The notes under the pieces were generated by a model. That model was not told where the DNA came from. It was given only the letters and a program-made list of their open reading frames with translations, and made no database searches. A program made the translations under genes and the position numbers. 64,000 nucleotides of DNA from Nonomuraea thailandensis. GTDB taxonomy: Bacteria; Actinomycetota; Actinomycetes; Streptosporangiales; Streptosporangiaceae. This document shows, one piece after another, positions 39,171 through 51,228 of the stretch (position 1 is its first letter; the number at the start of each line of letters is the position of its first letter). The stretch covers positions 10,638,501 through 10,702,500 of the forward strand of contig NZ_JAMZEB010000002.1 of assembly GCF_024172165.1 (NCBI RefSeq). The letters are read 5' to 3'.

Positions 39171-39457
39171 CACCCGCCGCCTAGGCTGGTAGGCCGTCCA
39201 CCTGTGAAAGGCGTTCTTGCAGTGTTGTGGCCTTGTATCGCCGACGGTCACGGTAACGTGCCTCAACGTGCGCGACAGCCGTGCAGAACAAATGCCGTCC
39301 CATGGGTGAAGCGTGGAACGTGCCAGGCCAGATCTCCATGCGTGACCGGTGCGATCAAGCCAAGAAGCAAACGCTCCCGCCCTACGGCGCAGGCGCGTCC
39401 CTCCATGCACGCCAGCCGCGCAGTGCCCTGCGCGCCGCCTTGGGAACAGGGATAGAG

Positions 39458-41320
39458 GTGGCTGACAGCACCGAGAGCGCGCAACCGGGCCATGTCCCCG
39501 GCGTGGCGGAGCGGCGGGACCTCCGGCTCCTGTGGACCGGCTCCACCGCCTCGCAGCTGGGAAACATGGCCTCCACGGTGACCGCGCCACTGCTCGCGCT
39601 CACGCTGACCAGCTCTCCGGTCTTCGCCGGATGGGTCGCCGCCGCCGGCACGCTGCCGCGCATCCTGCTGCACCTGCCCGCCGGCGTGCTGGCCGACTAC
39701 TCCGACCGGCGCCGCGTGATGGTCGGCAGCATGCTCGTCCGCGCGGCGCTGGCCGTGCTGATGGTCGGCTGCCTGATCGTCAGCGAAGACGGGGGAATCG
39801 TGTACCTGCTGCCCCTCGTCAGCATCGCGCAGGGCATCTGCGTGGTGCTCTACAGCACGGCCGAGACGACGGCCGTGCCCTGGCTGGTGCGCCGCGAGCG
39901 GCTGGCCAGGGCCATGGCGGGCAACGAGGCCCGCACCCACGTGGCCGGGCTGCTCGGCAGGCCGCTGGGCGGGTGGCTGTTCGAGCTGGGCCGCTGCTGG
40001 CCGTTCGTGCTGGACGTCGCCACCTCCGTCGTGTCGGCGCTCACCCTGCTGAGGATGCGCAACAAACGGTTCGCGCGGGCCGCGGTCAGGCGCCCGCTGC
40101 GGCCGGCGCGGCAGCTACGCGCGTTCCGGCGCGGCCTGACCTTCCTGCGGCACGAGGAGTTCCTGGCCCGCGTCATGATCGTCTGCGCGCTGGCGAACTT
40201 CGCCTTCCAGACCCTGGGCCTCACCCTGGTCCTGCTCGCCCACGAGCGGGAGATGTCGCCCCTGATGATCGGCCTGCTCATCGCGGCCTCGGGGCTGGGC
40301 GGGGTGCTGGGCTCGCTGACGGCCCCGCGCATGCTGCGCAGGATGAAGCCGGCCCGGCTGATCGTCGCGGGCGTCTGGGCGTGGTTGCTGCTGAGCGCGT
40401 GCCTCACCGTGACCGACCACGGCTCGTTCCTGTACGTCGCCGCCGTGCTGCCCGCCGCGTGGGGCGGGATCGGGTTCATCGGGGCGCACATCAACGTCGC
40501 GCTGGCCCTCTACCAGACCTCGGGCGTGCCGAAGCGGCTGTTCGGCCGGGTCACCAGCGTGATCCGGTTCTTCTCCGGCAGCACCGTGCCGCTCGGCGCC
40601 CTGGCGGGCGGCTACCTCCTGGCCCTGCTCGGCACGGAGCGCGCCGTCGTCCTGGTGGCCTTCGTGGTCGGCGGGCTGGCGCTGGCGATCTCCGCGCCGC
40701 GGCGCCCGTCAGCCGTCCGGCGCCGGCTCCGCCGGGAGCGGCCGGGCGACCGGGCCCGGCAGGGGGGCGGGCAACTCGCCGGCCACGTCGTGGAAGAGGT
40801 CGTCGCTCAGCGCATGGAGGCTGCTCTGCAGGCTGGCCTGTATCGCCGCAGGAGCCTCCGCGGGCACCGAGGTGGACCACGCCTGGAGATACGCCTCGTC
40901 GACTGCCCGGGTCAGCGACTCGATCCTGTGGTGGACCCGCGGCGGGCACAGCGGCCGCAGCCAAGCGACCGCGACGCTGGCCGCCAGGTACTCCACACGT
41001 ACCTGGCGAAGCTGCTCGGGCCGGTCCTCGCCGCCGAGGCGGGCGAGGCTGTTGCCGCGCATGTCGAGAGAGATGCGTACGGCGAGCCCCAGCTTCAGCA
41101 CCGCCGCCTGCGCGTCGGCGAACGCCGCGAGCAGCTCCTTGACCAGCGCGTCCCGCCGGAGCGCTTCCCGCTCCTCCGCCGCCGCCGCGCGGTCCTGCCT
41201 GGCCTTGTTCCGCTCACTGATCACGTAGGAACCGGCGCCGGACAGCGCGGCCAGCACGGCGCTGCCGCCGGTGATCAGGGTGAGCAGTGCGGTTTCACTG
41301 ATCAGCGATGCCTCCTTTGA
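39458..41320 (+). CDS. MFS transporter; frame stays open through the antisense of the next gene
   Basis: From GTG 39458. The transporter part spans about 418 residues to ~40713: twelve helices, with MFS loop motifs LADYSDRRRVMVGSM and GVLGSLTAPRMLRRMKPARL. This is the ENTS-like exporter type. No stop follows where one is expected; the frame continues to 41320 for 200 more residues. That tail (RRRLRRERPGDRARQ and so on) lies antisense to 40709-41305, has poor GC3 and no hydrophobic helices, so it is probably not functional sequence. Either the original stop was lost or the gene ends in a long antisense overlap. Substrate unknown. Confidence 0.75.
   Translation: MADSTESAQPGHVPGVAERRDLRLLWTGSTASQLGNMASTVTAPLLALTLTSSPVFAGWVAAAGTLPRILLHLPAGVLADYSDRRRVMVGSMLVRAALAVLMVGCLIVSEDGGIVYLLPLVSIAQGICVVLYSTAETTAVPWLVRRERLARAMAGNEARTHVAGLLGRPLGGWLFELGRCWPFVLDVATSVVSALTLLRMRNKRFARAAVRRPLRPARQLRAFRRGLTFLRHEEFLARVMIVCALANFAFQTLGLTLVLLAHEREMSPLMIGLLIAASGLGGVLGSLTAPRMLRRMKPARLIVAGVWAWLLLSACLTVTDHGSFLYVAAVLPAAWGGIGFIGAHINVALALYQTSGVPKRLFGRVTSVIRFFSGSTVPLGALAGGYLLALLGTERAVVLVAFVVGGLALAISAPRRPSAVRRRLRRERPGDRARQGGGQLAGHVVEEVVAQRMEAALQAGLYRRRSLRGHRGGPRLEIRLVDCPGQRLDPVVDPRRAQRPQPSDRDAGRQVLHTYLAKLLGPVLAAEAGEAVAAHVERDAYGEPQLQHRRLRVGERREQLLDQRVPPERFPLLRRRRAVLPGLVPLTDHVGTGAGQRGQHGAAAGDQGEQCGFTDQRCLL
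40709..41305 (-). CDS. Small membrane-anchored helical protein coupled to the nSTAND ATPase
   Basis: About 198 residues. AAAGGAGG (41318-41311) fits a CTG start at 41305 that overlaps the ATPase stop; the first ordinary start, GTG 41257, would cut away half of the membrane helix (ETALLTLITGGSAVLAALSG). After the helix comes a charged coiled coil (SERNKARQDRAAAAEEREAL) and a helical domain with LHALSDDLFHDVAGEL. The end is Pro-rich. I recognise no family. Being the last gene behind the ATPase, it may be its membrane partner or effector. GC3 is high in this frame and low on the opposite strand. Confidence 0.65.
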   Translation of the reverse strand: MISETALLTLITGGSAVLAALSGAGSYVISERNKARQDRAAAAEEREALRRDALVKELLAAFADAQAAVLKLGLAVRISLDMRGNSLARLGGEDRPEQLRQVRVEYLAASVAVAWLRPLCPPRVHHRIESLTRAVDEAYLQAWSTSVPAEAPAAIQASLQSSLHALSDDLFHDVAGELPAPLPGPVARPLPAEPAPDG

Positions 41321-42860
41321 GCGCCTGGCCGAGGCCGGTCCGTACGACCGGGTCGTTCGGGATCCTGCTGACGGCGGCCATCAGGTGCTCGATGGCCGTG
41401 CTCCGCCGGCCCTGCGCGAGCGAGATGCGGCCGACCGCCGCGAGTATCCAGCCCACGGAGGCGCAGTCGTTGAGCGCCTCGTACAGGGTCGCGGCGGCGA
41501 GGTAACGGGCTATGGCCTCGTCCAGCGAGCGCTGCTCGTAGCAGAGGTTGCCGAGCAGCGACTCGATGTCGGCGCGCACCCGCATCTCCTTCGGCGGGCA
41601 GACGCGGGCGGCCTCCAGGGCCAGCCGCCCGGCCCGGCCCGGCTCGCCCGCGTCGCGGGCGCGCCCGGCGGCGCACAGCAGCGCGGCCGGGTCCGGCGGG
41701 GGCGCGGGCCACTGCCCGGCGTCGAGCCTGCGCAGCGGGGCGAGCAGACGCCGCCGGCGCAGGTCCGGGCCCGCGCTGTGCCGGGCGTTCGTGATGAGGT
41801 GGCGGTCCTCCAGCGAGTGCAGGAACGCGTCGGTGATCCCGGCGGGCGGGGCCGGGCCTGCGCTGCCGCGCTGCAGCAGGGCGCGCCGCAGCCAGGACTC
41901 CAACTCGCGCGGCGGCAGCTCGTGCTCGGCCGCGGCGGCGGCGAGCGTCCTGCCGCACCAGTCGGCCAGGGCCCGCTCGACCTCGGCCCGCAGGCGCGTG
42001 GAGACGAAGTGGTCGTGGGCGGGGGGATCGCGCCACAGGTGCGCGCCCGCCACCTGCAGCAGCAGGGGGTCGATCGCCCGGGTCAGCCGGCTCACGCGCC
42101 CGCTGCCGTCCCTGATCGCGCGCAGCTCCTCCAGCAGCTCCTCGACCTCGGCCGGGGGGAAGTGCAGCCGCATGGCCTGGGCGGAGCGGCTCACGACGTC
42201 GGCGGCGGCCTCGGGCGTCAGGGGCCTGAGGTGGTACTCGGCGCACTCCGGCCGCCCCGCGTCCTTCACCTCGTGGCGCAGGTCGTCGAGGTAGTCGGAG
42301 CGCACGGCCAGGAGCAGGCGCAGGTTCGGCCGGCGGGCCAGCGCCTCGAAGAGCTCGTCCAGCAGCCGGCGGCGGTGCCCCTTGCGCGGCTCCTGCCGGC
42401 GCAGGAACGCCTCCGCCTGGTCGACGGCGGCGAAGATCAGGGCCGGCTCCCCGTCGCTGTCGAGCGTCTGCCTGCCGCGTACGAACTCGCCGATCGACAG
42501 CTCCGCCAGCCGCCCCGGCGACTCCTCCGGGTCCCAGGACGACAGCAGAGTGAGCACGTACGGGTTGTGGCCGGGCAGCGCGGCGACCGGCCACACCCGG
42601 CACGAGGTGGCCCGGCCGAGCGGCAGCACGTTGGCGTTGTCGGCGCGAAGCTTGGGGATGAGCCCCGCGCGCAGCAGCGAGGTCTTGCCCGCGGCGGCGT
42701 CGGAGTGGAGGATCGTCAGCCGGTTGCGCCGCCACAGCCCGCGCAGCAGCCGGATCTCGTCGGACCGTCCGAAGAAGAGGCTCTCGTCATGAGCGGTGAA
42801 CGGCCGCGGGCCGATGAAGGGGCTGCGTCGCCGCCGCAGTGCCGCGGGTATTCCTGCCAT
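41295..42860 (-). CDS. nSTAND-type P-loop ATPase with C-terminal TPR-like repeats
   Basis: 521 residues from ATG 42860 (GAGG upstream). The N-terminus FIGPRPFTAHDESLFFGRSD is the signature of nSTAND1 proteins. Walker A is SDAAAGKTSLL (residues 53-63), Walker B LIFAAVDQAEAF (141-152), followed by winged-helix-like segments (LTRAIDPLLLQVAGAHLW) and C-terminal helical repeats (NLCYEQRSLDEAIARYLAAA). STAND ATPases act as switchable signalling scaffolds and many work in microbial conflict. It lies downstream of fxsA on the same strand and overlaps the next membrane-protein gene by 11 bases. Confidence 0.85.
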   Translation of the reverse strand: MAGIPAALRRRRSPFIGPRPFTAHDESLFFGRSDEIRLLRGLWRRNRLTILHSDAAAGKTSLLRAGLIPKLRADNANVLPLGRATSCRVWPVAALPGHNPYVLTLLSSWDPEESPGRLAELSIGEFVRGRQTLDSDGEPALIFAAVDQAEAFLRRQEPRKGHRRRLLDELFEALARRPNLRLLLAVRSDYLDDLRHEVKDAGRPECAEYHLRPLTPEAAADVVSRSAQAMRLHFPPAEVEELLEELRAIRDGSGRVSRLTRAIDPLLLQVAGAHLWRDPPAHDHFVSTRLRAEVERALADWCGRTLAAAAAEHELPPRELESWLRRALLQRGSAGPAPPAGITDAFLHSLEDRHLITNARHSAGPDLRRRRLLAPLRRLDAGQWPAPPPDPAALLCAAGRARDAGEPGRAGRLALEAARVCPPKEMRVRADIESLLGNLCYEQRSLDEAIARYLAAATLYEALNDCASVGWILAAVGRISLAQGRRSTAIEHLMAAVSRIPNDPVVRTGLGQALKGGIADQ

Positions 42861-43029
42861 GGGGAGACCTCGCTAACCGAGGAGCCGACATATTGCGCCG
42901 CCCGGCGATCGCACCGGCACGCCACGGTGCGAAATCAAATATCGCCCGGGCCGAAACGCAATGATGTCTCATTCCGCACCACATTTCCAAGGTACCGCAC
43001 GACGCTGTGGAGCACTTGTCGGGCGCGGC

Positions 43030-43049
43030 CATTTCGGGCCACCGAAATG
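43030..43049 (-). terminator. Hairpin just after fxsA
   Basis: CATTTCGG-GCCA-CCGAAATG, an 8-base-pair perfect stem, lies 11 bases after the fxsA stop. It has no T-run. It may act as an attenuator that makes precursor mRNA more abundant than the downstream nSTAND mRNA. Confidence 0.45.
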
Positions 43050-43060
43050 AAAGGCGGCGG

Positions 43061-43252
43061 TCAGTTCTCCGCGCGCGCCGGAGGCGTGCTGTTGTCGAAT
43101 GCCGCGTACACGTCCTCCTGCTCCCGGCCGGGCTCCAGCAGCTCGCGCAGTGCCGTGCCCAGGGCGGAGTCGCCAAGTTCGCGCAGGTGGACGGGGGAGA
43201 GGGCGGAAACGTCGACCAGGTCGCCCTGTCGTACGGAAAGCTGCGGTCGCAT
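43061..43252 (-). CDS. fxsA: FxsA-type precursor peptide (FxSxx-COOH system)
   Basis: 63 residues from ATG 43252 with GGGAG 6 bases upstream. The leader DLVDVSALSPVHLRELGDSA followed by LGTALRELL matches FxSxx-COOH precursors (L-x-D-V-S ... L-x-x-L-x-D-S-A-L). The core end is VYAAFDNSTPPARAEN. Canonical members stop at Phe-x-Ser-x-x; here F-D-N-S-T is followed by seven more residues. Phe-Asp-Asn fits the aromatic-x-x tripeptide that three-residue cyclophane-forming radical SAM enzymes cross-link. fxsT is divergent and fxsB lies 3 kb away. The family call is good; the modified site is inferred. Confidence 0.75.
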   Translation of the reverse strand: MRPQLSVRQGDLVDVSALSPVHLRELGDSALGTALRELLEPGREQEDVYAAFDNSTPPARAEN

Positions 43253-43484
43253 GAGCGCTCCCTCGTGGCCATGAGGCGCCGGGTGTGGCTCCGCCCCGCT
43301 GAATTGATCTGGACTTTCGTGGAGCCATTAATCCGGCGATCTCAGTCTTCGTCTGGACTCTACCGCTGCGGGGCCGGTCCGGGCGGTTAGGATGGTGCTC
43401 GTCATCATTACTTCCCCATGCCTTTGCAGTCGCAATCCATCGAACGAAAACGTCATCGGGTCGAGTGGACGGGAGGCAGCACAC

Positions 43485-46010
43485 GTGATGGTTTCAGAGC
43501 CGTCCGCCACGGAGCGATCACCACGTGATTTTCCGACGGTGTGGAAAGTGCCCCCGCGGAACAAGAACTTCACCGGGCGGGAGACCCTGCTCAACAGGCT
43601 GCACACGGGCATCGGTGACAACGTCACGGCGGTCGTGCCGCACACCCTGCACGGCCTGGGCGGCGTCGGCAAGACGCAGATGGCCATCGAGTACGCCTAC
43701 CGCTTCCGCGACAGCTACGACGTCGTCTGGTGGATCCCCGCCGACCAGCCCGGCCTGGTCCGCGCGACCCTGGCACAGCTCGCGCCGAAGCTGGGCGTGC
43801 CCGACGCCACGACGGCGGGCATCGAGGACGCCGCCAACGCCGTGCTCGACGCCCTGCGCAGGGGCGAGCCGTACGGCCGCTGGCTGCTCATCTTCGACAA
43901 CGCCGACCAGCCGGAGGACTTCGGCGAGCTGATCCCGCCGGGCCCCGGCGACGTCCTGGTCACCTCGCGCAACCACCGCTGGGCCGGCGTCTACGAGACG
44001 ATCGCCGTGGACGTCTTCCCGCGCAAGGAGAGCATGGAGTTCCTCTCCAAGCGCGTGCCGTCGGTCACGGTAGAGGAGGCCGACAAGCTGGCGGAGGCAC
44101 TCGGCGACCTGCCGCTGGCGCTGGAGCAGGCGGCCGCCCTCCAGGTCGAGACCGGCATGTCGGCGCAGGAGTACCTGCGCCTGTTCGAGCAGCACGCCTC
44201 CAGCCTGCTGGAGGAGGGCAAACCCCGGGAGTACCCCTGGTCGATGACGACGGCCTGGCGGCTGTCGGTGACCAAGCTGCGCGAGCACCTGCCGGAAGCC
44301 ATGGACCTGCTGCGCACCTGCGCGTTCTTCGGCCCCGAGCCCATCCCGCGCGACGCCTTCCGCCCGGTCAAGGGCCCGGTGCGGCCCGAGCTGGCCGAGC
44401 TGCTCGCCACGCCCATCCGGCTGAGCAAGGCCATCGCGACGCTGGCGCGCTACGCGCTGGTGCGCATCGACCCCGACGAGCGCACGCTCCAGGTGCACCG
44501 GCTGATCCAGGCCCTGCTGAGGGAGGAGCTGCCGGCTGCGCTGCAGGGCGAGATCCGCTCCGAGGTGCACTCCCTCATCGTCGAGGCGGCCCCCGCGGGC
44601 GCCGACATCCCCGCGAACTGGCCGCGCTACCAGGCGCTGCTCGCCCACGTGGACCCGGCGGAGGTGGCGGAGAGCACCCGGCCGGACGTGCGCTCGTTCG
44701 CGCACAACATGCTGGGCGCCCTGGCGTCGTCGGGCGACTACCGCACCGCCAGCAGGTACGCCGAAGCGTTCGTGCAGCAGTGGTCCCGCGACTCCGGCGC
44801 CACGGACCCCGACGTGCTGCGGGCGCAGCGCGTCAAGGGCGACATGCTGCGCGAGTTCGGCCGCTACGCCGACGCCTACGAGCTGAACACGACGACGCTG
44901 GCCACCATGCGCGAGGTGCTCGGCCACGACCACCGCGAGGTGCTGATCCTGCTCAACGGCATCGGCGCCGACCTGCGCGGGCGCGGCCGGTTCATCGACG
45001 CCAGGGAGCACGACAAGGAGTCGGTGGAGCGGCACCGGGCGGTGCTCGGCTCCGACGACGTGCAGACGCTGCGCGCGATCAACAACCTGGCCCTCGACTT
45101 CGGCCTCACCAGCGACTACCGCGCCTCCCAGGTGCTGCTGGAGGAGGCCTACCGCGCCGCCCAGGCCAACGAGGGCAAGGTGAGCCGCGGCACCTTCCTC
45201 AACCTGTGGGCCAGCCTGGCCCGCTCCGTCCGGCAGTGCGGCGACTACAACGAGGCGTGCGACGTGGGCAGGGACGCGCTCGGCTACGGGCGGCAACACC
45301 TCGACGCCGACCACCCGCGCGTGCTCCTCGTGCAGAAGGACCTGGCCATCGCCCTGCTCCGGGCGGGCGAGCGGGAGGAGGGCCTGGAGCTGGCCCGGGA
45401 CGTGCACGCCCGATACGTGCGCATCTACGACCTCAACCACCCGGGCACGCTGGCGGCCGCCGCCTGCCTGGCCAACTCCCTGCGCACCAACGACCTGCCG
45501 GAGGACGCCTACCGGCTCGCCAAGGACACCCGCGACCGCTACGCCCGGGTCTACAGCTCCGAGCACCCGTACCACTACGGCTGCATCAGCAACGTGGCGC
45601 TGCTGGAGCGGGTGCGGGGCGAGCCCGCGGTGGCGTACGAGCTGAACGAGCAGGCACTGGCGGGGCTGGAGAGCAGGTTCGGGCGCGACCACCACTACGT
45701 GCTCACCGTCGCGGTCAACCTGGCCAGCGACCTGGCCGCGCTGGGCGAGCTCGACCGGGCCTGCCGGCTGGGCGAGGAGTCGCTGCAGCGGCTGCGCCGG
45801 CTCCTGGGCGAGCACCATCCCGCCTCCCTGGCCGCCGCCGCCAACCTGGCCACCGACCTGGCCGCCGCCGGCCGGGGCGACGAGGCCAAGCGGCTGTTCG
45901 ACGAGACGATGCGGCGCTACGAGGAGACGCTCGGGCGCGAGCACTTCGACGCGCTGGCGGCGGCCGAAGGCCGCCACCTCGACCTCGACTTCGACCCGCC
46001 GCCGATCTAG
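43485..46010 (+). CDS. fxsT: FxSxx-COOH system NB-ARC/tetratricopeptide repeat protein
   Basis: 841 residues. GTG 43485 has GGGAGG with an 8-base spacer; ATG 43488 is next. The N-terminus VWKVPPRNKNFTGRETLLNR and the P-loop HGLGGVGKTQMAIEYAYRFR (about residues 57-75) are typical of FxsT. Walker B is WLLIFDNAD. An NB-ARC-type winged helix follows (ALGDLPLALEQAAALQVETG), then from about residue 420 a long array of TPR units (GHDHREVLILLNGIGADLRG, GEHHPASLAAAANLATDLAA). It is thought to be a regulatory/scaffold protein of this peptide system. Convergent with fxsB, 4 bases apart. Confidence 0.88.
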   Translation: MMVSEPSATERSPRDFPTVWKVPPRNKNFTGRETLLNRLHTGIGDNVTAVVPHTLHGLGGVGKTQMAIEYAYRFRDSYDVVWWIPADQPGLVRATLAQLAPKLGVPDATTAGIEDAANAVLDALRRGEPYGRWLLIFDNADQPEDFGELIPPGPGDVLVTSRNHRWAGVYETIAVDVFPRKESMEFLSKRVPSVTVEEADKLAEALGDLPLALEQAAALQVETGMSAQEYLRLFEQHASSLLEEGKPREYPWSMTTAWRLSVTKLREHLPEAMDLLRTCAFFGPEPIPRDAFRPVKGPVRPELAELLATPIRLSKAIATLARYALVRIDPDERTLQVHRLIQALLREELPAALQGEIRSEVHSLIVEAAPAGADIPANWPRYQALLAHVDPAEVAESTRPDVRSFAHNMLGALASSGDYRTASRYAEAFVQQWSRDSGATDPDVLRAQRVKGDMLREFGRYADAYELNTTTLATMREVLGHDHREVLILLNGIGADLRGRGRFIDAREHDKESVERHRAVLGSDDVQTLRAINNLALDFGLTSDYRASQVLLEEAYRAAQANEGKVSRGTFLNLWASLARSVRQCGDYNEACDVGRDALGYGRQHLDADHPRVLLVQKDLAIALLRAGEREEGLELARDVHARYVRIYDLNHPGTLAAAACLANSLRTNDLPEDAYRLAKDTRDRYARVYSSEHPYHYGCISNVALLERVRGEPAVAYELNEQALAGLESRFGRDHHYVLTVAVNLASDLAALGELDRACRLGEESLQRLRRLLGEHHPASLAAAANLATDLAAAGRGDEAKRLFDETMRRYEETLGREHFDALAAAEGRHLDLDFDPPPI

Positions 46011-46014
46011 CCGC

Positions 46015-47229
46015 TCAGCCCGGGCCGGTCAGGAGCGCCACGTCGTCGGCCACGAGCCGCCGGACGTGCGTGATCAGCCGGTACAGGTCACGGCAGTAGA
46101 CGGAGGGGTTGCGGAAGCCCGCGCCGGAGCGGTACCGGTGCGGGTAGAGGCCGCCGCCGCAGACGCGGGCGATCGCGCACGAGGAGCAGCCGGCCGACAG
46201 CGCCTGCTCGCCGATCTGCCGCGCCGCCACCGACGGCAGGAACAGCGCCGTGTCGAACGAGTCGCGCAGCACGTGCAGCATGGTCGCCGTGGCCCCGTCG
46301 TAGGCCGACTTGAGCGTGTCGACCTGCTCGATGCTGCCGTCCGTCTCCACCACCACGACCGCCACCGGCGACAGGCCGATCGCCTCGCTGCGCGAGGGCC
46401 GGCCGAGGAGCAGGCGGATGATCTCGCTGAACAGCCGGACCTGCGTCTCCTGCGCCGGGGCCTGGTACCAGCGGTCGAAGACGGCCACGAGCCAGTCGCC
46501 GTACGGCGTGCCGTCCTTCGACCAGCCGGGCGGCGGGGTGTCCCAGTTGCCGTGCGGCAGCAGGAAGTCCACCACCGGCGGGCCGAAGCGCAGCAGCGCC
46601 TCGTACGTGACGACCGGATCGCTGGCCAGGTCCAGCGTGCACAGCAGGCCGCTGAACAGGTGCCGGTAGGCGGGCGAGGTCAGGTTCTCCAGCCGGGCCC
46701 GCACCTCGGCGTAGGTGCCGGTGCCCTGCGCGCGGCGGCGATGGCGGTCGTGCCCCTCCTCGTCGCCGTCCAGGCTGACGCCCACCCGCACGTCGAGCTC
46801 GGCGAACAGCCGCAGGAACGCCTCGTTGAGCAGCACCCCGTTGGTCTGCACCCGGACGGTCGCCGTGACGCCGTCGCCGAGCTCGGCACGCAGCCGGTTC
46901 ACCGCGTAGCGGGTGTGCTCGACACCCGCGAGCAGCGGCTCGCCGCCGTGCAGGACGATCTCGACGGCGCGCATGCCGTGCGCCTCGGCGTGCTCGGCGA
47001 CGCGCGCGGCCACCCGGTCGATCGTCGCCTTGGACATGCGGCGCGGCTGGCCGCGCCAGCCCTGGTCGGCCATCTCGTAGACGTAGCAGTAGTCGCAGGC
47101 CAGGTTGCAGCGGCTGTGCAGCTTCAGGATGAACTGCCGGAACGGCGTCGGCCGCCACCCCGACTCCAGCAGGTTGCCGACGTCGAGATCGGCCGGCCAT
47201 TCGAGCTCGCGCCGGGCATTGTTTCCCAC
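46015..47229 (-). CDS. fxsB: Radical SAM/SPASM cyclophane-forming peptide maturase FxsB
   Basis: 404 residues from GTG 47229, AGGAG 9 bases upstream; the frame stays open to 47346 without another good site. The [4Fe-4S] radical SAM motif is RCNLACDYCYVYE (Cys 41, 45, 48), followed by VEIVLHGGEPLL, VRVQTNGVLLNE and GVSLDGDEEGHDRHR. The C-terminal SPASM region has GCSSCAIARVCGGG and VYCRDL for auxiliary clusters. FxsB belongs with XyeB and GrrM among three-residue cyclophane-forming enzymes, which join an aromatic ring to the beta-carbon of a residue two places on. The substrate is the nearby FxsA peptide. Confidence 0.92.
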   Translation of the reverse strand: MGNNARRELEWPADLDVGNLLESGWRPTPFRQFILKLHSRCNLACDYCYVYEMADQGWRGQPRRMSKATIDRVAARVAEHAEAHGMRAVEIVLHGGEPLLAGVEHTRYAVNRLRAELGDGVTATVRVQTNGVLLNEAFLRLFAELDVRVGVSLDGDEEGHDRHRRRAQGTGTYAEVRARLENLTSPAYRHLFSGLLCTLDLASDPVVTYEALLRFGPPVVDFLLPHGNWDTPPPGWSKDGTPYGDWLVAVFDRWYQAPAQETQVRLFSEIIRLLLGRPSRSEAIGLSPVAVVVVETDGSIEQVDTLKSAYDGATATMLHVLRDSFDTALFLPSVAARQIGEQALSAGCSSCAIARVCGGGLYPHRYRSGAGFRNPSVYCRDLYRLITHVRRLVADDVALLTGPG

Positions 47230-47421: not shown

Positions 47422-47700
47422 GTGAGTCCGGACTACCGCTGGCACCTGCGGAAGATGATGGCCGTCCGTGGCATGTACGCCACCACCGACCTGCGGCCCC
47501 TGCTCGCGGAGCGGGGCTTCCGCCTGTCGCAGAGCCAGGTCTACCGGCTGGTCGCCGAGCGGCCGGTGCGGCTCAACCTGCGCGTGCTGATGGCCCTGCT
47601 GGACATCCTCGACTGCACGATGGAGGAGCTCATCGAGCCGGTCCCGGCCGGCACGGGGACGAGCCCCGCGCCGCGTCCGGAGACAGGCCGGCCGGCATGA
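47422..47700 (+). CDS. XRE-type helix-turn-helix regulator of integrative-element type
   Basis: 92 residues from GTG 47422 (GGGGAG, 9-base spacer). DYRWHLRKMMAVRGMYATTD, then LAERGFRLSQSQVYRLVAER and LRVLMALLDILDCTMEELIE, is the short Cro/C1-like HTH that in actinomycetes is usually encoded next to a tyrosine recombinase of integrative elements. No recombinase is present here, so it is probably a remnant or an adopted regulator. It is divergent from fxsB and so could bind the fxsB promoter. Confidence 0.8.
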   Translation: MSPDYRWHLRKMMAVRGMYATTDLRPLLAERGFRLSQSQVYRLVAERPVRLNLRVLMALLDILDCTMEELIEPVPAGTGTSPAPRPETGRPA

Positions 47701-47785: not shown

Positions 47786-47817
47786 GAGGTGCTGCCCGGC
47801 GGCGGGACGCCGGTGTC

Positions 47818-48786
47818 TCAGGGGATGAGCAGCGTCTTGCCGAGCGTGGCCCGCTTGCCGATGGCCGCGTGCGCGTCGGCGGCCCCCTCCAGCGGGAACG
47901 TCTGGCCGATCACCGGCCGCAGCCGCCCGGCGGCGCCCTCGGCCAGCGCCCGCACCGACAGCTCGTGAACGGCCGCCGGCGACGGGAAGGCCGCGCCCAT
48001 CGGCACCAGGGTGACGCCCCGCCCGGTCGCCTCCTCCGCCGGGATCGACGTCATCTCCCCGCTCCCCGCCCCGAACGCCAGGAACCGCCCGCCCTGCCGG
48101 ACCAGCTCGAACGCCGCCCGCCCGATGGCGCCGCCCGCGGGGTCGGCGGACACGTCCACGCCCGCGCCGCCGGTCGCCTCGCGTACCCGATCGGCCCAGC
48201 CGGGCTCGGTGTAGTCCACGCCAACCTCGGCGCCCCTGCTCAGGGCGAGGTCCAGCTTGGGCCCCGAGCTGGCGGCGGCGATCACCCGCGCGCCCGCCTG
48301 CCTGGCGAGCTGGATCAGCAGGCTGCTGACGCCGCTCGCGGCGGCCCCGATCAGCACCCACTCCCCGGCCGCGGGCGCCAGGGCCCGCGCGATGCCCAGG
48401 GCGGTGCGCCCGTCGTTCAGCAGGCCGACCGCGTCGCGGAAGCCGAGCCCGTCCGGGATCGGCACCAGCAGGCCGGCGTCGACCGCCACCTTCTCGGCAT
48501 ACCCGCCCGAGCCGCCGGTGGTGCTGGCCACCCGCTGGCCGACCAGCGCGGCGTCCACGTCCGGACCCGCGGCCACGACGGTGCCCGCCACGCCGTTGCC
48601 GGGGATGATCGGCAGCGCCGGCAACGCCATGGGCGCCGAGCCCGAACGCACCTGCGTCTCCACGTACGTGATCCCGATCGCCGCGGTCTCGATCAGCACC
48701 TGTCCCGCACCCGGCACGGGATCCGGCGTCTGCTCGACCCGCAGCACCTCCGGCCCGCCGAACTCCCTCAACCAGACAGCACGCAT
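47818..48786 (-). CDS. Zinc-free medium-chain dehydrogenase, quinone oxidoreductase-like
   Basis: 322 residues from ATG 48786, AAGGAG upstream. N-terminal GroES-like domain (RAVWLREFGGPEVLRVEQTP, IIPGNGVAGTVVAAGPDVD) and Rossmann domain (WVLIGAAASGVSSLLIQLAR, GARVIAAASSGPKLDLALSR, GAEVGVDYTEPGW). The usual Cys/His zinc ligands are absent, as in QOR/zeta-crystallin proteins that reduce quinones or enones with NADPH. It faces away from ddl, with a 115-base divergent promoter region. Confidence 0.9.
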   Translation of the reverse strand: MRAVWLREFGGPEVLRVEQTPDPVPGAGQVLIETAAIGITYVETQVRSGSAPMALPALPIIPGNGVAGTVVAAGPDVDAALVGQRVASTTGGSGGYAEKVAVDAGLLVPIPDGLGFRDAVGLLNDGRTALGIARALAPAAGEWVLIGAAASGVSSLLIQLARQAGARVIAAASSGPKLDLALSRGAEVGVDYTEPGWADRVREATGGAGVDVSADPAGGAIGRAAFELVRQGGRFLAFGAGSGEMTSIPAEEATGRGVTLVPMGAAFPSPAAVHELSVRALAEGAAGRLRPVIGQTFPLEGAADAHAAIGKRATLGKTLLIP

Positions 48787-48901: not shown

Positions 48902-49858
48902 ATGAGTGAACGCCTGCGCGTCGCCGTGCTGGCGGGCGGGCCGTCCCCCGAGCACGAGGTCTCGCTGCAGTCGGCGCAGGCGGTGCTCGACACGTTGCCG
49001 AAGGACCGGTACGACACGATCCCCGTCATCATCGACCGGCACGGCAGATGGCCGCTGGACCTGCGCCGCGGCATCGCGGACGTGGTGTTCCCCGTGCTGC
49101 ACGGCCCGTACGGCGAGGACGGCGTCATCCAGGGCCACCTGGAGACGCTGGGCCTGCCGTACGTGGGCTGCGGCGTGCTGGCCTCGGCCGTGGCGATGGA
49201 CAAGAGCGCGATGCGCCGGGCGTTCCTCGCCGAGGACATCCCCGTCACGCCGCACGTCTGGTTCAGCGAGCACGACTGGCGCGCCACGACCGACCCGTGG
49301 AGCCTGGTGAAGCCGCTCGGCTGGCCGATGTACGTCAAGCCGGCGAACATGGGCTCATCCATCGGCATCTCCCGCGTCACCTCGGTCGAGGAGCTGCGGG
49401 CGGGGGTCGAGCTGGCCTTGACCTACGACCGGGTGGTCGTCGTCGAGCAGGGCGTCGTGGCACGCGAGCTGATCTGCGGCGTGCTCGGCGACCATGACAC
49501 CCCCGAGGCCTCGGTGACCGGTGAGCTCAACGTCCACGGCGACTGGCTCGACTACGAGGCCAAATACCTCAGCCACTCGGAGATCGCCACTATTCCCGCG
49601 GCGCTGCCCGGCCGGGTGGCCGAGGAGGTGCGCGAGCTGGCCCTGCGCGCCTTCCGCGCGGTGGGCGGGTACGGGCTGTCCAGGGTGGACTTCCTCTACG
49701 AGGAGGAGACCTGCCGCCTGTACGTGCTGGAGATCAACACCATGCCCGGCTTCACCCCTCGATCCGTCTTCGCCAGGGCCTGGGAGGCCAGCGGGGTCCC
49801 GTACCCGGACCTGTTGGGCCGCCTCATCGACCTGGCGCTCGCCAGGAGCGGCTCATGA
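48902..49858 (+). CDS. ddl: D-alanine-D-alanine ligase
   Basis: 318 residues from ATG 48902 (GAGGAAGG). The ATP-grasp ligase is complete. The specificity triad of D-Ala-D-Ala ligases is present: Glu in SPEHEVSLQ, Ser in NMGSSIGIS and Tyr in DYEAKYLS, so D-Ala-D-Ala rather than D-Ala-D-lactate is predicted. Mg-binding VLEINTMPGFTPRS closes the site. At 318 residues it is shorter than the usual ~360-residue actinobacterial housekeeping Ddl, which suggests a second copy. murF overlaps its stop by 4 bases. Confidence 0.92.
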   Translation: MSERLRVAVLAGGPSPEHEVSLQSAQAVLDTLPKDRYDTIPVIIDRHGRWPLDLRRGIADVVFPVLHGPYGEDGVIQGHLETLGLPYVGCGVLASAVAMDKSAMRRAFLAEDIPVTPHVWFSEHDWRATTDPWSLVKPLGWPMYVKPANMGSSIGISRVTSVEELRAGVELALTYDRVVVVEQGVVARELICGVLGDHDTPEASVTGELNVHGDWLDYEAKYLSHSEIATIPAALPGRVAEEVRELALRAFRAVGGYGLSRVDFLYEEETCRLYVLEINTMPGFTPRSVFARAWEASGVPYPDLLGRLIDLALARSGS

Positions 49859-51228
49859 TCCCGATGACACTGGCCGAGATCGCCCGGGTGCTGGGCGCCG
49901 GCCTGCACGACGTGCCGGATCCGCACGCGCTGGTGACGGCGCCGTCGGCGGTCGACTCGCGCGAGGTGCGGCCCGGCGGCCTGTTCGCCGCCACCGCGGG
50001 CGCCCGCGTGGACGGCCACGACTACGCGGCCGGCGCGGTGGCCGACGGCGCGGTGGCCGTGCTGGCCGCCCGCCCCGTCGGGGTGCCCGCGATCCTGGTG
50101 GAGGACGTGCAGTCGGCGCTCGGCGTGCTCGCCCGGCACGTGCTCGGCCGGCTCGATCCGACCGTGATCGCGCTGACCGGCTCCGTGGGCAAGACCACGA
50201 CCAAGGACCTGCTCGCCCAGGTGCTCGAACCGCACGCGCCGACGATCTCCACCGACCGCTCGTTCAACAACGAGCTCGGGCTGCCGCTCACCGTGCTGCG
50301 CGCCGACGCCGGCACCCGGTACCTGGTGCTGGAGATGGGCGCGGGCACGAAGGGCGACCTGACGTACCTGACCGGGATCGCCCCGCCCGACCTGAGCCTG
50401 GTGCTCAACGTCGGCGCCGCGCACGTCTCGCGCATGGGCGGCGGGCTGGCGGACGTGGCCGCCGCCAAGGGCGAGCTGGTCGAGGCCCTTCCGCCGGACG
50501 GGTACGCGCTGCTCAACGCCGACGATCCGTACGTCGTCGGCATGGTGCCGCGCACCAGAGCCCGGATCGTGCTGTACGGACGGTCGCCGGGGGCCGCCGT
50601 ACGAGCCGAGAGGGTGGCGCTGGACGAGGCGGGCAGGGCCGCGTTCGACCTGGTCACGCCGTCGGGGCGGGCCAGGGTCCGGCTCGGCCTCGTCGGCGCG
50701 CACCAGGTGGCCAACGCGCTCGGCGCCGCCGCGGCGGCCGTCACGCTCGGGCTGCCCGCCGACGGGATCGCCGCCGGGCTGAGCGCGGCCGGCCGGCGCT
50801 CGCCGGGGCGGTTCGAGATCAGCGAGCGCCCGGACGGCGTGACGGTCGTCGACGACGCCTACAACGCCAACCCGGAGTCGATGCGGGCCGGGCTGCACGC
50901 GTTCAAGGCGCTGGCCGGCAGCCGCCGCACGGTCGCGATCCTCGGCGGGATGGGGCAGCAGGCCGACGCCTCGCGCGCCCGGCACGCCCAGGTGGGGCGG
51001 CTCGTGGCCGAGTTGGGCATCGACGTGCTGATCGCCGTGGGCGAGGAGGACGTGCCGGCCATGGCGCGGGAAGCGCGGTTGTCCGGGCCCGGTGTCACCG
51101 TGCACCTGAGCGAGGACGTGACGGGAGCGATCACGCTGGCCAAGGAGCTGATCGAGCCCGGGGACGTGGTGTTCGTCAAGGCGTCCAGCGAGTACGGCCT
51201 GGGCGCCTGCGCCCGCGCGCTGCGCTGA
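49855..51228 (+). CDS. murF: UDP-MurNAc-tripeptide-D-alanyl-D-alanine ligase (MurF)
   Basis: 457 residues from ATG 49855 (ATGA overlap with ddl). Mur-ligase features in order: SAVDSREVRPGGLFAATAG, the ATP loop ALTGSVGKTTTKDLLAQVL, RSFNNELGLPLT, LEMGAGTKGDLTYLT, GAHQVANALGAAAAA, VVDDAYNANPESM and AILGGMGQ. It adds the dipeptide made by Ddl to the cell-wall precursor. The ddl-murF pair lies outside a cell-division/wall cluster, so it is likely a paralogous set for a special wall state. The racemase gene converges with a one-base gap. Confidence 0.93.
   Translation: MIPMTLAEIARVLGAGLHDVPDPHALVTAPSAVDSREVRPGGLFAATAGARVDGHDYAAGAVADGAVAVLAARPVGVPAILVEDVQSALGVLARHVLGRLDPTVIALTGSVGKTTTKDLLAQVLEPHAPTISTDRSFNNELGLPLTVLRADAGTRYLVLEMGAGTKGDLTYLTGIAPPDLSLVLNVGAAHVSRMGGGLADVAAAKGELVEALPPDGYALLNADDPYVVGMVPRTRARIVLYGRSPGAAVRAERVALDEAGRAAFDLVTPSGRARVRLGLVGAHQVANALGAAAAAVTLGLPADGIAAGLSAAGRRSPGRFEISERPDGVTVVDDAYNANPESMRAGLHAFKALAGSRRTVAILGGMGQQADASRARHAQVGRLVAELGIDVLIAVGEEDVPAMAREARLSGPGVTVHLSEDVTGAITLAKELIEPGDVVFVKASSEYGLGACARALR

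Follow-up and report, generated by a model that had tools for sequence, protein, structure and literature searches.

An FxSxx-type peptide locus of Nonomuraea thailandensis with two STAND ATPases, a membrane protein and a transporter: a possible peptide-controlled switch

Background

Do an nSTAND ATPase and a small membrane protein encoded directly behind the gene of an FxSxx-type precursor peptide belong to the same system as the peptide, and if so, what might such a system do? The question is raised by a locus in a 64,000-nucleotide stretch of the Nonomuraea thailandensis genome (contig NZ_JAMZEB010000002.1, positions 10,638,501 to 10,702,500), here called the window. An original prediction made from the letters alone had assigned the ATPase to the peptide locus by gene order and had read the whole as a regulated conflict or signalling system. 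In the open-licence literature we found no paper testing the biological role of an Fxs peptide.

Results

Composition of the locus

The cassette is arranged in the order fxsB / fxsT / fxsA-nSTAND-MEM / MFS, where MEM denotes the membrane protein, and all of its reading frames are open (Table 1). As predicted, fxsA, fxsB and fxsT are recognisable by established families, each scoring above its cut-off, and the same holds for the nSTAND ATPase on the fxsA strand. FxsC, said to be absent from the window, has no TIGR04276 match even across the organism's own genome (E 0.001); this family is matched in 19 of 197 genomes of the class, in 15 of them above cut-off. The MFS transporter at the cassette end is an addition to the predicted gene set. 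A consensus scan of positions 40500-43500 found neither a promoter nor a terminator, such a consensus being uninformative for an actinomycete.

Table 1. Features of the fxs cassette in the window
Feature	Position	Strand	Evidence
MFS transporter, convergent	39440..41320	+	MFS_1 110.7 bits, MFS_3 98.7 bits; domain about 39530-40697
MEM, 198-aa membrane protein: N-terminal hydrophobic helix and helical bundle	40709..41305	-	relatives, dN/dS, shared start
nSTAND1-TPR ATPase, 521 aa	41295..42860	-	PF20703 98.3 bits, cut-off 27.1
fxsA, 63-aa precursor peptide	43061..43252	-	TIGR04268 33.4 bits, cut-off 28
Predicted cross-link triad Phe52-Asp53-Asn54 of FxsA	43091..43099	-	occupies the F-x-[S/N] place of relatives
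fxsT, NB-ARC/TPR STAND ATPase, divergent to fxsA	43392..46010	+	NF040586 971.9 bits, residues 53-872, cut-off 300
fxsB, radical SAM/SPASM cyclophane-forming maturase, 404 aa	46015..47229	-	TIGR04269 473.7 bits, cut-off 370

FxsA does not end in FxSxx-COOH. Its F-D-N at residues 52-54 is followed by STPPARAEN, that is, FDNST and then PPARAEN, and tails beyond the motif are also found on several of its relatives, the shortest being that of locus L098 (FDNSTAL). The CX3CX2C motif of FxsB is visible in the translation and the protein ends with its SPASM part, without a fused HExxH domain; a blastp search of window positions 33001-55000 with one HExxH homologue (E 1e-12) gave no aKG-HExxH peptide beta-hydroxylase (TIGR04267) either. 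FxsT, which may start at ATG 43392 or at ATG 43488, is matched by NB-ARC and TPR domains, while the TPR matches of the nSTAND ATPase lie below their Pfam cut-offs. Among 18 nSTAND sequences the Walker Lys59 is nearly invariant and Asp147-Gln148-x-Glu150 is invariant; the nearest relatives have Ser or Ala in place of the first P-loop Gly. Near its C-terminus the window protein is about 40 residues shorter than most of its sisters, with about 120 bases missing relative to loci L107 and L092.

The small membrane protein overlapping nSTAND proved to be real, with relatives of 35-87% identity in 8 further loci, but its start moves from the predicted GTG 41257 to CTG 41305. This codon is preceded by the Shine-Dalgarno sequence AAAGGAGG and gives an 11-base overlap with the end of nSTAND; the corresponding codon is CTG in L092 and L094, TTG in L093 and in L090, whose MEM is a remnant only, and ATG in L096, L097 and L238. 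The predicted MEM structure resembles only generic helical bundles. The hydrophobicity of a second stretch, beginning at residue 56, comes close to that of the first (1.66 and 1.71, respectively), so the protein may have either one or two membrane helices and any topology is a guess; the helical bundle is probably cytosolic. The MFS frame, with its start at TTG 39440 or GTG 39458, continues without a stop codon to 41320, running antisense to MEM.

Compared with the copies in genome G045, the window genes are under purifying selection, with dN/dS values of 0.25-0.33 for fxsA (0.293), fxsB, fxsT and MEM (0.245) and of 0.394 for nSTAND. Constraint is weaker against the more distant copies of G007 (0.41, 0.572 and 0.62 for FxsA, MEM and nSTAND, respectively).

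Association of nSTAND with fxs genes

A count over 54 genomes of the genus gave 70 nSTAND places. An FxsB homologue is found no more than 12 kb away from 55 of them, where 0.26 would be expected, and 67 of 70 are near FxsB or FxsT. This is the opposite of nSTAND homologues occurring mostly without fxs genes, which the original prediction had named as evidence against itself, and it bears out the guess drawn from gene order. Conversely, nSTAND is absent within 12 kb of 26 of the 81 FxsB places. (The 70 places derive from 72 rows by merging two-piece matches in G010 and G021, the 81 from 83 rows by counting the broken G037 copy, matched in two pieces, once and excluding the 63-residue partial G013:C49.) Fxs genes are common in the family: in a sample of 250 genomes, tallied at genome level with few candidates scored per genome so that counts may be low, FxsT was found among the matches listed in 191 genomes overall and in 116 of the 117 that carry nSTAND (Fisher p 2e-18, relatedness ignored), and 75 genomes have FxsT without nSTAND.

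FxsA, FxsB, MEM and MFS have been lost or damaged jointly in genomes G028, G018, G010 and G037. In three close relatives, however, the nSTAND frame is open after loss of fxsA, fxsT, fxsB, MEM and MFS, and dN/dS between two of these orphans is 0.387, similar to that between the window and G045 copies, so that nSTAND may work alone. These orphans count against a strict dependence on fxs.

Alternative partners of nSTAND

One of the scans for loci contributed a sample of at least 79. Of 108 loci with a match to nSTAND, 91 entered the tree, 10 being left out as duplicates from the same genome and 7 for having fewer than 300 matched residues. The latter 7 include L084, an Fxs locus that lacks both SIR2 and MEM and is thus outside the 58 Fxs loci counted below. 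A single supported clade unites the Fxs nSTANDs (62 rows, SH-aLRT 100; midpoint-rooted tree). A SIR2 gene lies upstream of nSTAND in 26 of the 58 loci and MEM accompanies it in 11, never both; neither was detected in 21. SIR2 is absent from all 29 MEM loci (11 plus 19 minus one, L110 and L241 being the same contig), including, among the matches listed, the 19 fetched outside the genus, and none was detected at the window locus. SIR2 and MEM therefore look like alternative partners. Distant nSTAND relatives adjoin SIR2 genes, and a SIR2-type NADase was probably the ancestral partner. TTNYD and HLHG are both kept in 10 of 11 aligned Fxs-linked SIR2s as compared to none of 5 non-Fxs SIR2s.

MEM adjoins nSTAND in 10 of 10 matches in the genus and, among the matches listed, in 19 of 19 outside it, where few candidates were scored per genome and tallies may be low; these 19 loci contain FxsT (19), MFS (18), FxsB (17) and HExxH (16). 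Of 61 loci, 31 have the transporter 3' of nSTAND/MEM, and in the other 30 none was detected. FxsA went undetected in 24 of the 58 Fxs loci, probably due to divergence, and in five of the 58 nSTAND is on the strand opposite to fxsA. Taken together, these genes recur jointly and mostly in the same order, both within the genus and in further genera of the family, which supports the view that the window locus is a single functional cassette.

Discussion

That a peptide is combined with a membrane protein, a transporter and two ATPases resembling immune receptors suggests a peptide-controlled immune or cell-death switch in a soil actinobacterium. FxsB would cross-link Phe52 to Asn54 of FxsA, Phe-Cbeta(Asn) and Phe-Cbeta(Ser) links being known from triceptides according to the available part of PMC11002830, and the mature peptide would then be exported by the MFS transporter. 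The TPR domains of FxsT and nSTAND may read the peptide, alone or together with a danger cue, and activated nSTAND would switch on a dedicated partner, a SIR2-type NADase in many sister loci and MEM in this branch. As an output, cells of the mycelium would die or turn dormant, which would make the system a peptide-controlled switch resembling abortive infection. We consider it most likely that the matured peptide serves as an alarm or co-ligand of the STAND ATPases, which would drive SIR2 or MEM; the model as a whole, a cassette whose cross-linked FxsA peptide is read by FxsT and nSTAND, is offered tentatively, at somewhat under an even chance. A bolder version, which we think rather unlikely, is that bacterial NLR-like ATPases have as their ligand a ribosomal cyclophane peptide that the cell itself makes, exports and senses again, whereupon the nSTAND receptor would set off a SIR2 NADase or, in this branch, MEM as a new membrane effector. 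If true, this would amount to peptide-gated, colony-level immunity or programmed death.

But might FxsA not simply be a weapon? A secreted cross-linked antimicrobial, exported by MFS against competitors, with MEM as self-immunity and the two STAND ATPases regulating production, would be in keeping with the recurrence of an MFS_1/MFS_3-type transporter, with the loss of MEM and MFS along with fxsA and fxsB, and with the precedents of darobactin, a radical SAM-made cross-linked peptide antibiotic (PMC9055067, in its available part), and dynobactin, another such antibiotic (available part of PMC11002830). We nevertheless judge this unlikely, given that sister loci carry SIR2 at the place of MEM, a SIR2 NADase being easier to understand as an internal effector than as an immunity protein, and that the transporter is undetected in about half of the loci. 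Quite improbable, in our view, is that nSTAND with SIR2 or MEM is merely a neighbour, an independent phage-defence module at an Fxs-rich place. The persistence of the three orphans, with the dN/dS of 0.387 between two of them, would fit, as would the non-Fxs relatives adjoining SIR2 genes, the checked cases being CHAT-SIR2 and nSTAND-WD40 proteins; co-occurrence at 67 of 70 places and, among the matches listed, in 116 of 117 genomes, the recurrent gene order and the single clade argue against it.

There is, finally, a very slim chance that the window copy is decaying, as it is without the HExxH hydroxylase, encodes a tailed FxsA and has an nSTAND shortened by those 40 residues. Sister G037, with a broken fxsB, no fxsA and cut MEM and MFS genes, and three other sisters retaining only nSTAND, illustrate such a course. 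However, the window frames are open and constrained. Moreover, the nearest fxsB-bearing loci (L092-L094, L096-L099) likewise have no detected HExxH, although it is present in L087 and L110, and the FxsA of the same loci also shows F[D/E]N followed by a tail.

From the comparison of loci, an orphan RiPP gains a concrete set of partners, namely an nSTAND ATPase of immune type, SIR2 or MEM as exchangeable partners, and a transporter. This turns its role into a testable receptor-ligand question and makes MEM a candidate for a new effector family.

How does the cassette relate to known systems? SIR2 and nSTAND1 pairs outside Fxs (L141-L184), for which we found no literature source naming them, likewise place a homologous nSTAND1 ATPase near a SIR2_2 partner; they contain CHAT-SIR2 (L151, L158) and WD40 (L145, L151) in the loci checked, whereas the Fxs versions have TPR for WD40 and SIR2 without CHAT, or MEM for SIR2. 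AVAST type 5 (SIR2-STAND) also uses a STAND ATPase that contains a repeat region to drive a SIR2 effector, but joins an N-terminal SIR2 and nSTAND3 in one protein where Fxs loci have separate genes and nSTAND1, and peptide maturation, unlike in Fxs loci, goes unmentioned in the available part of PMC12931631. The actinobacterial FxSxx conflict systems of Kaur et al. 2020 (PMC7159879) share the FxSxx-type precursor, the radical SAM/SPASM maturase and an AP-ATPase with TPRs, and standalone forms are mentioned; the words nSTAND, SIR2 and MFS appear nowhere in the text of that paper. Different from these systems, as described there, our locus has no FxsC, and inspection revealed no VMAP/vWA ternary genes next to fxs. 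Both the proposal of Kaur et al. and the kinship with SIR2-nSTAND pairs agree with the conflict-system reading of the original prediction, in which the signalling mechanism is conjectural. Last, the triceptides or three-residue cyclophane RiPPs, as set out in the available part of PMC11002830, also combine a SPASM radical SAM enzyme with an aromatic-x-[N/S] motif; compared with them, the window FxsA bears FDN and a 7-aa tail past the five-residue motif instead of a C-terminal FxSxx, and it is linked to STAND ATPases.

Results

In the original prediction this part of the 13.8-Mb genome was an fxs locus extended by an nSTAND ATPase and a small membrane protein (MEM), a description that is real and correct apart from the start of MEM and an interpretation that is right in outline. 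In a model search fxsA, fxsB and fxsT exceed curated cut-offs, and the nSTAND1 domain lies above and the TPR matches of nSTAND below the Pfam cut-offs. As to extent, the genes are present as described and the cassette is wider than the coordinates then proposed, because an MFS homologue recurs 3' of nSTAND or MEM. Of 61 related loci, 31 have such a homologue, 26 in convergent orientation and five on nSTAND's strand; they include both MEM-type loci and those with a SIR2 (NADase-type) partner. Full MFS/MEM antisense overlap is also seen in loci L092 and L098, and partial overlap in L093, L094, L097, L099 and L087. The cluster of the HTH_26 protein divergent from fxsB lies outside those common to at least three mapped loci. 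The ligase and racemase-family genes are possibly a second cell-wall precursor set.

Features of the window from low to high coordinates, with dN/dS against genome G045 and the more distant genome G007
Feature	Coordinates	Strand	dN/dS, G045	dN/dS, G007
MFS transporter	frame open to 41320	+		
MFS frame antisense over whole MEM	40709-41320	+		
MEM	40709-41305	-	0.245	0.57
nSTAND1-TPR ATPase	41295-42860	-	0.39	0.62
fxsA (precursor peptide)		-	0.29	0.41
fxsT (NB-ARC/TPR ATPase)		+	0.29	
fxsB (radical SAM maturase)		-	0.33	
Cro/C1-type HTH_26 protein	47422-47700	+		
D-Ala-D-Ala ligase gene, then directly Mur ligase gene	48902-51228			
Asp/Glu racemase-family gene, downstream of the pair		opposite to the pair		

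That nSTAND belongs to the fxs system would have been contradicted by homologues occurring mostly without fxs genes, and the opposite was found. At E up to 1e-20, nSTAND homologues occupy 70 places in 44 of 54 genus genomes, 55 of them within 12 kb of FxsB (chance expectation 0.26); FxsB homologues occupy 81 places, 55 with and 26 without nSTAND. Since 12 of the 15 nSTANDs without FxsB have FxsT and an HExxH protein (aKG-HExxH peptide beta-hydroxylase) nearby, 67 of 70 are Fxs-linked; the remaining three are orphans. In a sample of 250 family genomes nSTAND occurs in 117 and FxsT in 191, both together in 116 of the 117 (p 2e-18 in a Fisher test that ignores relatedness), and in the sole exception, G249, nSTAND lies at a contig start. 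Loci L218-L225 and L140 carry nSTAND, FxsT and HExxH with no FxsB match (L140 and L220-L225 also SIR2) and may be Fxs-like systems that lack the radical SAM enzyme. Within one branch of Nonomuraea that has no SIR2 (L074, L075, L076, L083, L103, L104) an AAA_16-type ATPase of about 900 residues (c7) and a companion of about 330 (c12) recur beside fxsB; L085 has a shorter c7-type ATPase.

Many FxsA relatives end C-terminally in F-x-[S/N]-x-x (FSNSI, FQSAL, FTSSI), and others, in several branches, have short tails. The window FxsA and its nearest relatives have F[D/E]N and then a tail of varying length: after FDNST follow PPARAEN in the window and just two residues in L098. The label FxSxx-COOH therefore does not strictly describe them. 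Triceptide enzymes, as described in PMC11002830, join Phe to the Cbeta of an Asn or Ser at the second position after it, so that a cross-link from Phe52 to Asn54 is predicted here. No HExxH gene was detected at the window locus, L092-L094 or L096-L099; two further MEM loci, L087 and L110, have one.

MEM, an unclassified protein, has a hydrophobic helix at its N-terminus and an almost equally hydrophobic stretch from residue 56 (1.66 vs 1.71). The predicted model (mean pLDDT 79.7, three sequences) has a long helix running into a helical bundle, at whose start the second stretch is placed; its structure matches are generic only. The start first assigned to MEM was not borne out: translation would begin at CTG 41305 behind AAAGGAGG, where relatives have CTG, TTG or ATG. 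MEM gave ten matches in nine of 54 genus genomes, each 3' of an nSTAND found in the genus search and one (G037) a 30-residue remnant, and profile matches in 22 of 250 family genomes. All 19 matches outside Nonomuraea were fetched: nSTAND and FxsT lie near all 19, MFS near 18, FxsB near 17 and HExxH near 16, with L254 truncated by a contig end; SIR2 is absent from all 19.

A scan of named genomes yielded at least 79 nSTAND loci, in which two of the orphans appear as L107 and L108. Among the matches listed, the closer loci, L109-L140, are actinobacterial and have FxsB or FxsT in all but L138, a 3-kb contig bearing HExxH, and the more distant L141-L185 (Chloroflexota, Pseudomonadota, some Actinomycetota, others) have no detected Fxs gene and a SIR2 match in 40 of 45, upstream of nSTAND except in L172, L174 and L179. 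Paired SIR2 and nSTAND1 genes occur in Chloroflexota, Pseudomonadota and further groups (L141-L184, e.g. L151:7857-13717); Pfam finds CHAT-SIR2 in both partners checked (L151, L158) and nSTAND1-WD40 in both ATPases checked (L145, L151). Among the matches listed, the midpoint-rooted nSTAND tree places the Fxs set (62 rows) and the SIR2-only set (29 rows) on opposite sides of a fully supported split, and the window nSTAND nests in the MEM branch. The simplest reading of this tree would be that SIR2 came first. SIR2 is present in 26 of the 58 unique Fxs loci among the matches listed, in each case on nSTAND's strand and upstream of it; MEM is present in 11, one of them a remnant, no locus has both and 21 have neither. 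In an alignment of 16 SIR2s, TTNYD and HLHG, whose Asn and His we take to be catalytic, are both kept in ten of 11 from Fxs loci and in none of the five others, all with changed signature residues. In PADLOC the three non-Fxs SIR2s tested had matches of ThsA type and a few others, of 48 bits at most, and the one partial non-Fxs nSTAND tested had none.

Discussion

Comparison of these sequences supports one cassette in which one nSTAND clade has a dedicated and exchangeable partner, SIR2 or MEM. We propose that the FxsA peptide would be cross-linked, exported by MFS and sensed by the TPRs, and that SIR2 or MEM would then be activated.

Some genomes speak against a tight coupling of nSTAND to the other genes. 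In G028, G018 and G010 the nSTAND frame is open and fxsA, fxsT, fxsB, MEM and MFS are gone. These orphans (L089, L091, L095) lie between two deletions with one edge common within ten bases; the deletion beyond fxsA runs from 43053-43059 in two genomes, and from 42875 in the third, to 47808-47818 in every one of them. G037 has kept nSTAND and FxsT, with fxsA absent, fxsB broken, and MEM and MFS cut. So decay affects FxsA, FxsB, MEM and MFS jointly, and nSTAND can survive their loss. An nSTAND that has lost the peptide evidently does not kill the cell, a point against the peptide as its antitoxin. An activating peptide would fit the orphans, as far as genomes in which MEM too is lost or cut can indicate.

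The general idea of a peptide-amplified conflict system is not new here: in the text of Kaur et al. 2020 (PMC7159879) such peptides are proposed as a toxin or signal amplifying conflict systems with AP-ATPases. The words nSTAND, SIR2 and MFS are absent from that text; nSTAND1 is named in PMC8195603, and the open-licence literature searched gave no further paper on the gene set. The locus is a variant of already described Fxs systems, with MEM as a candidate new effector family.
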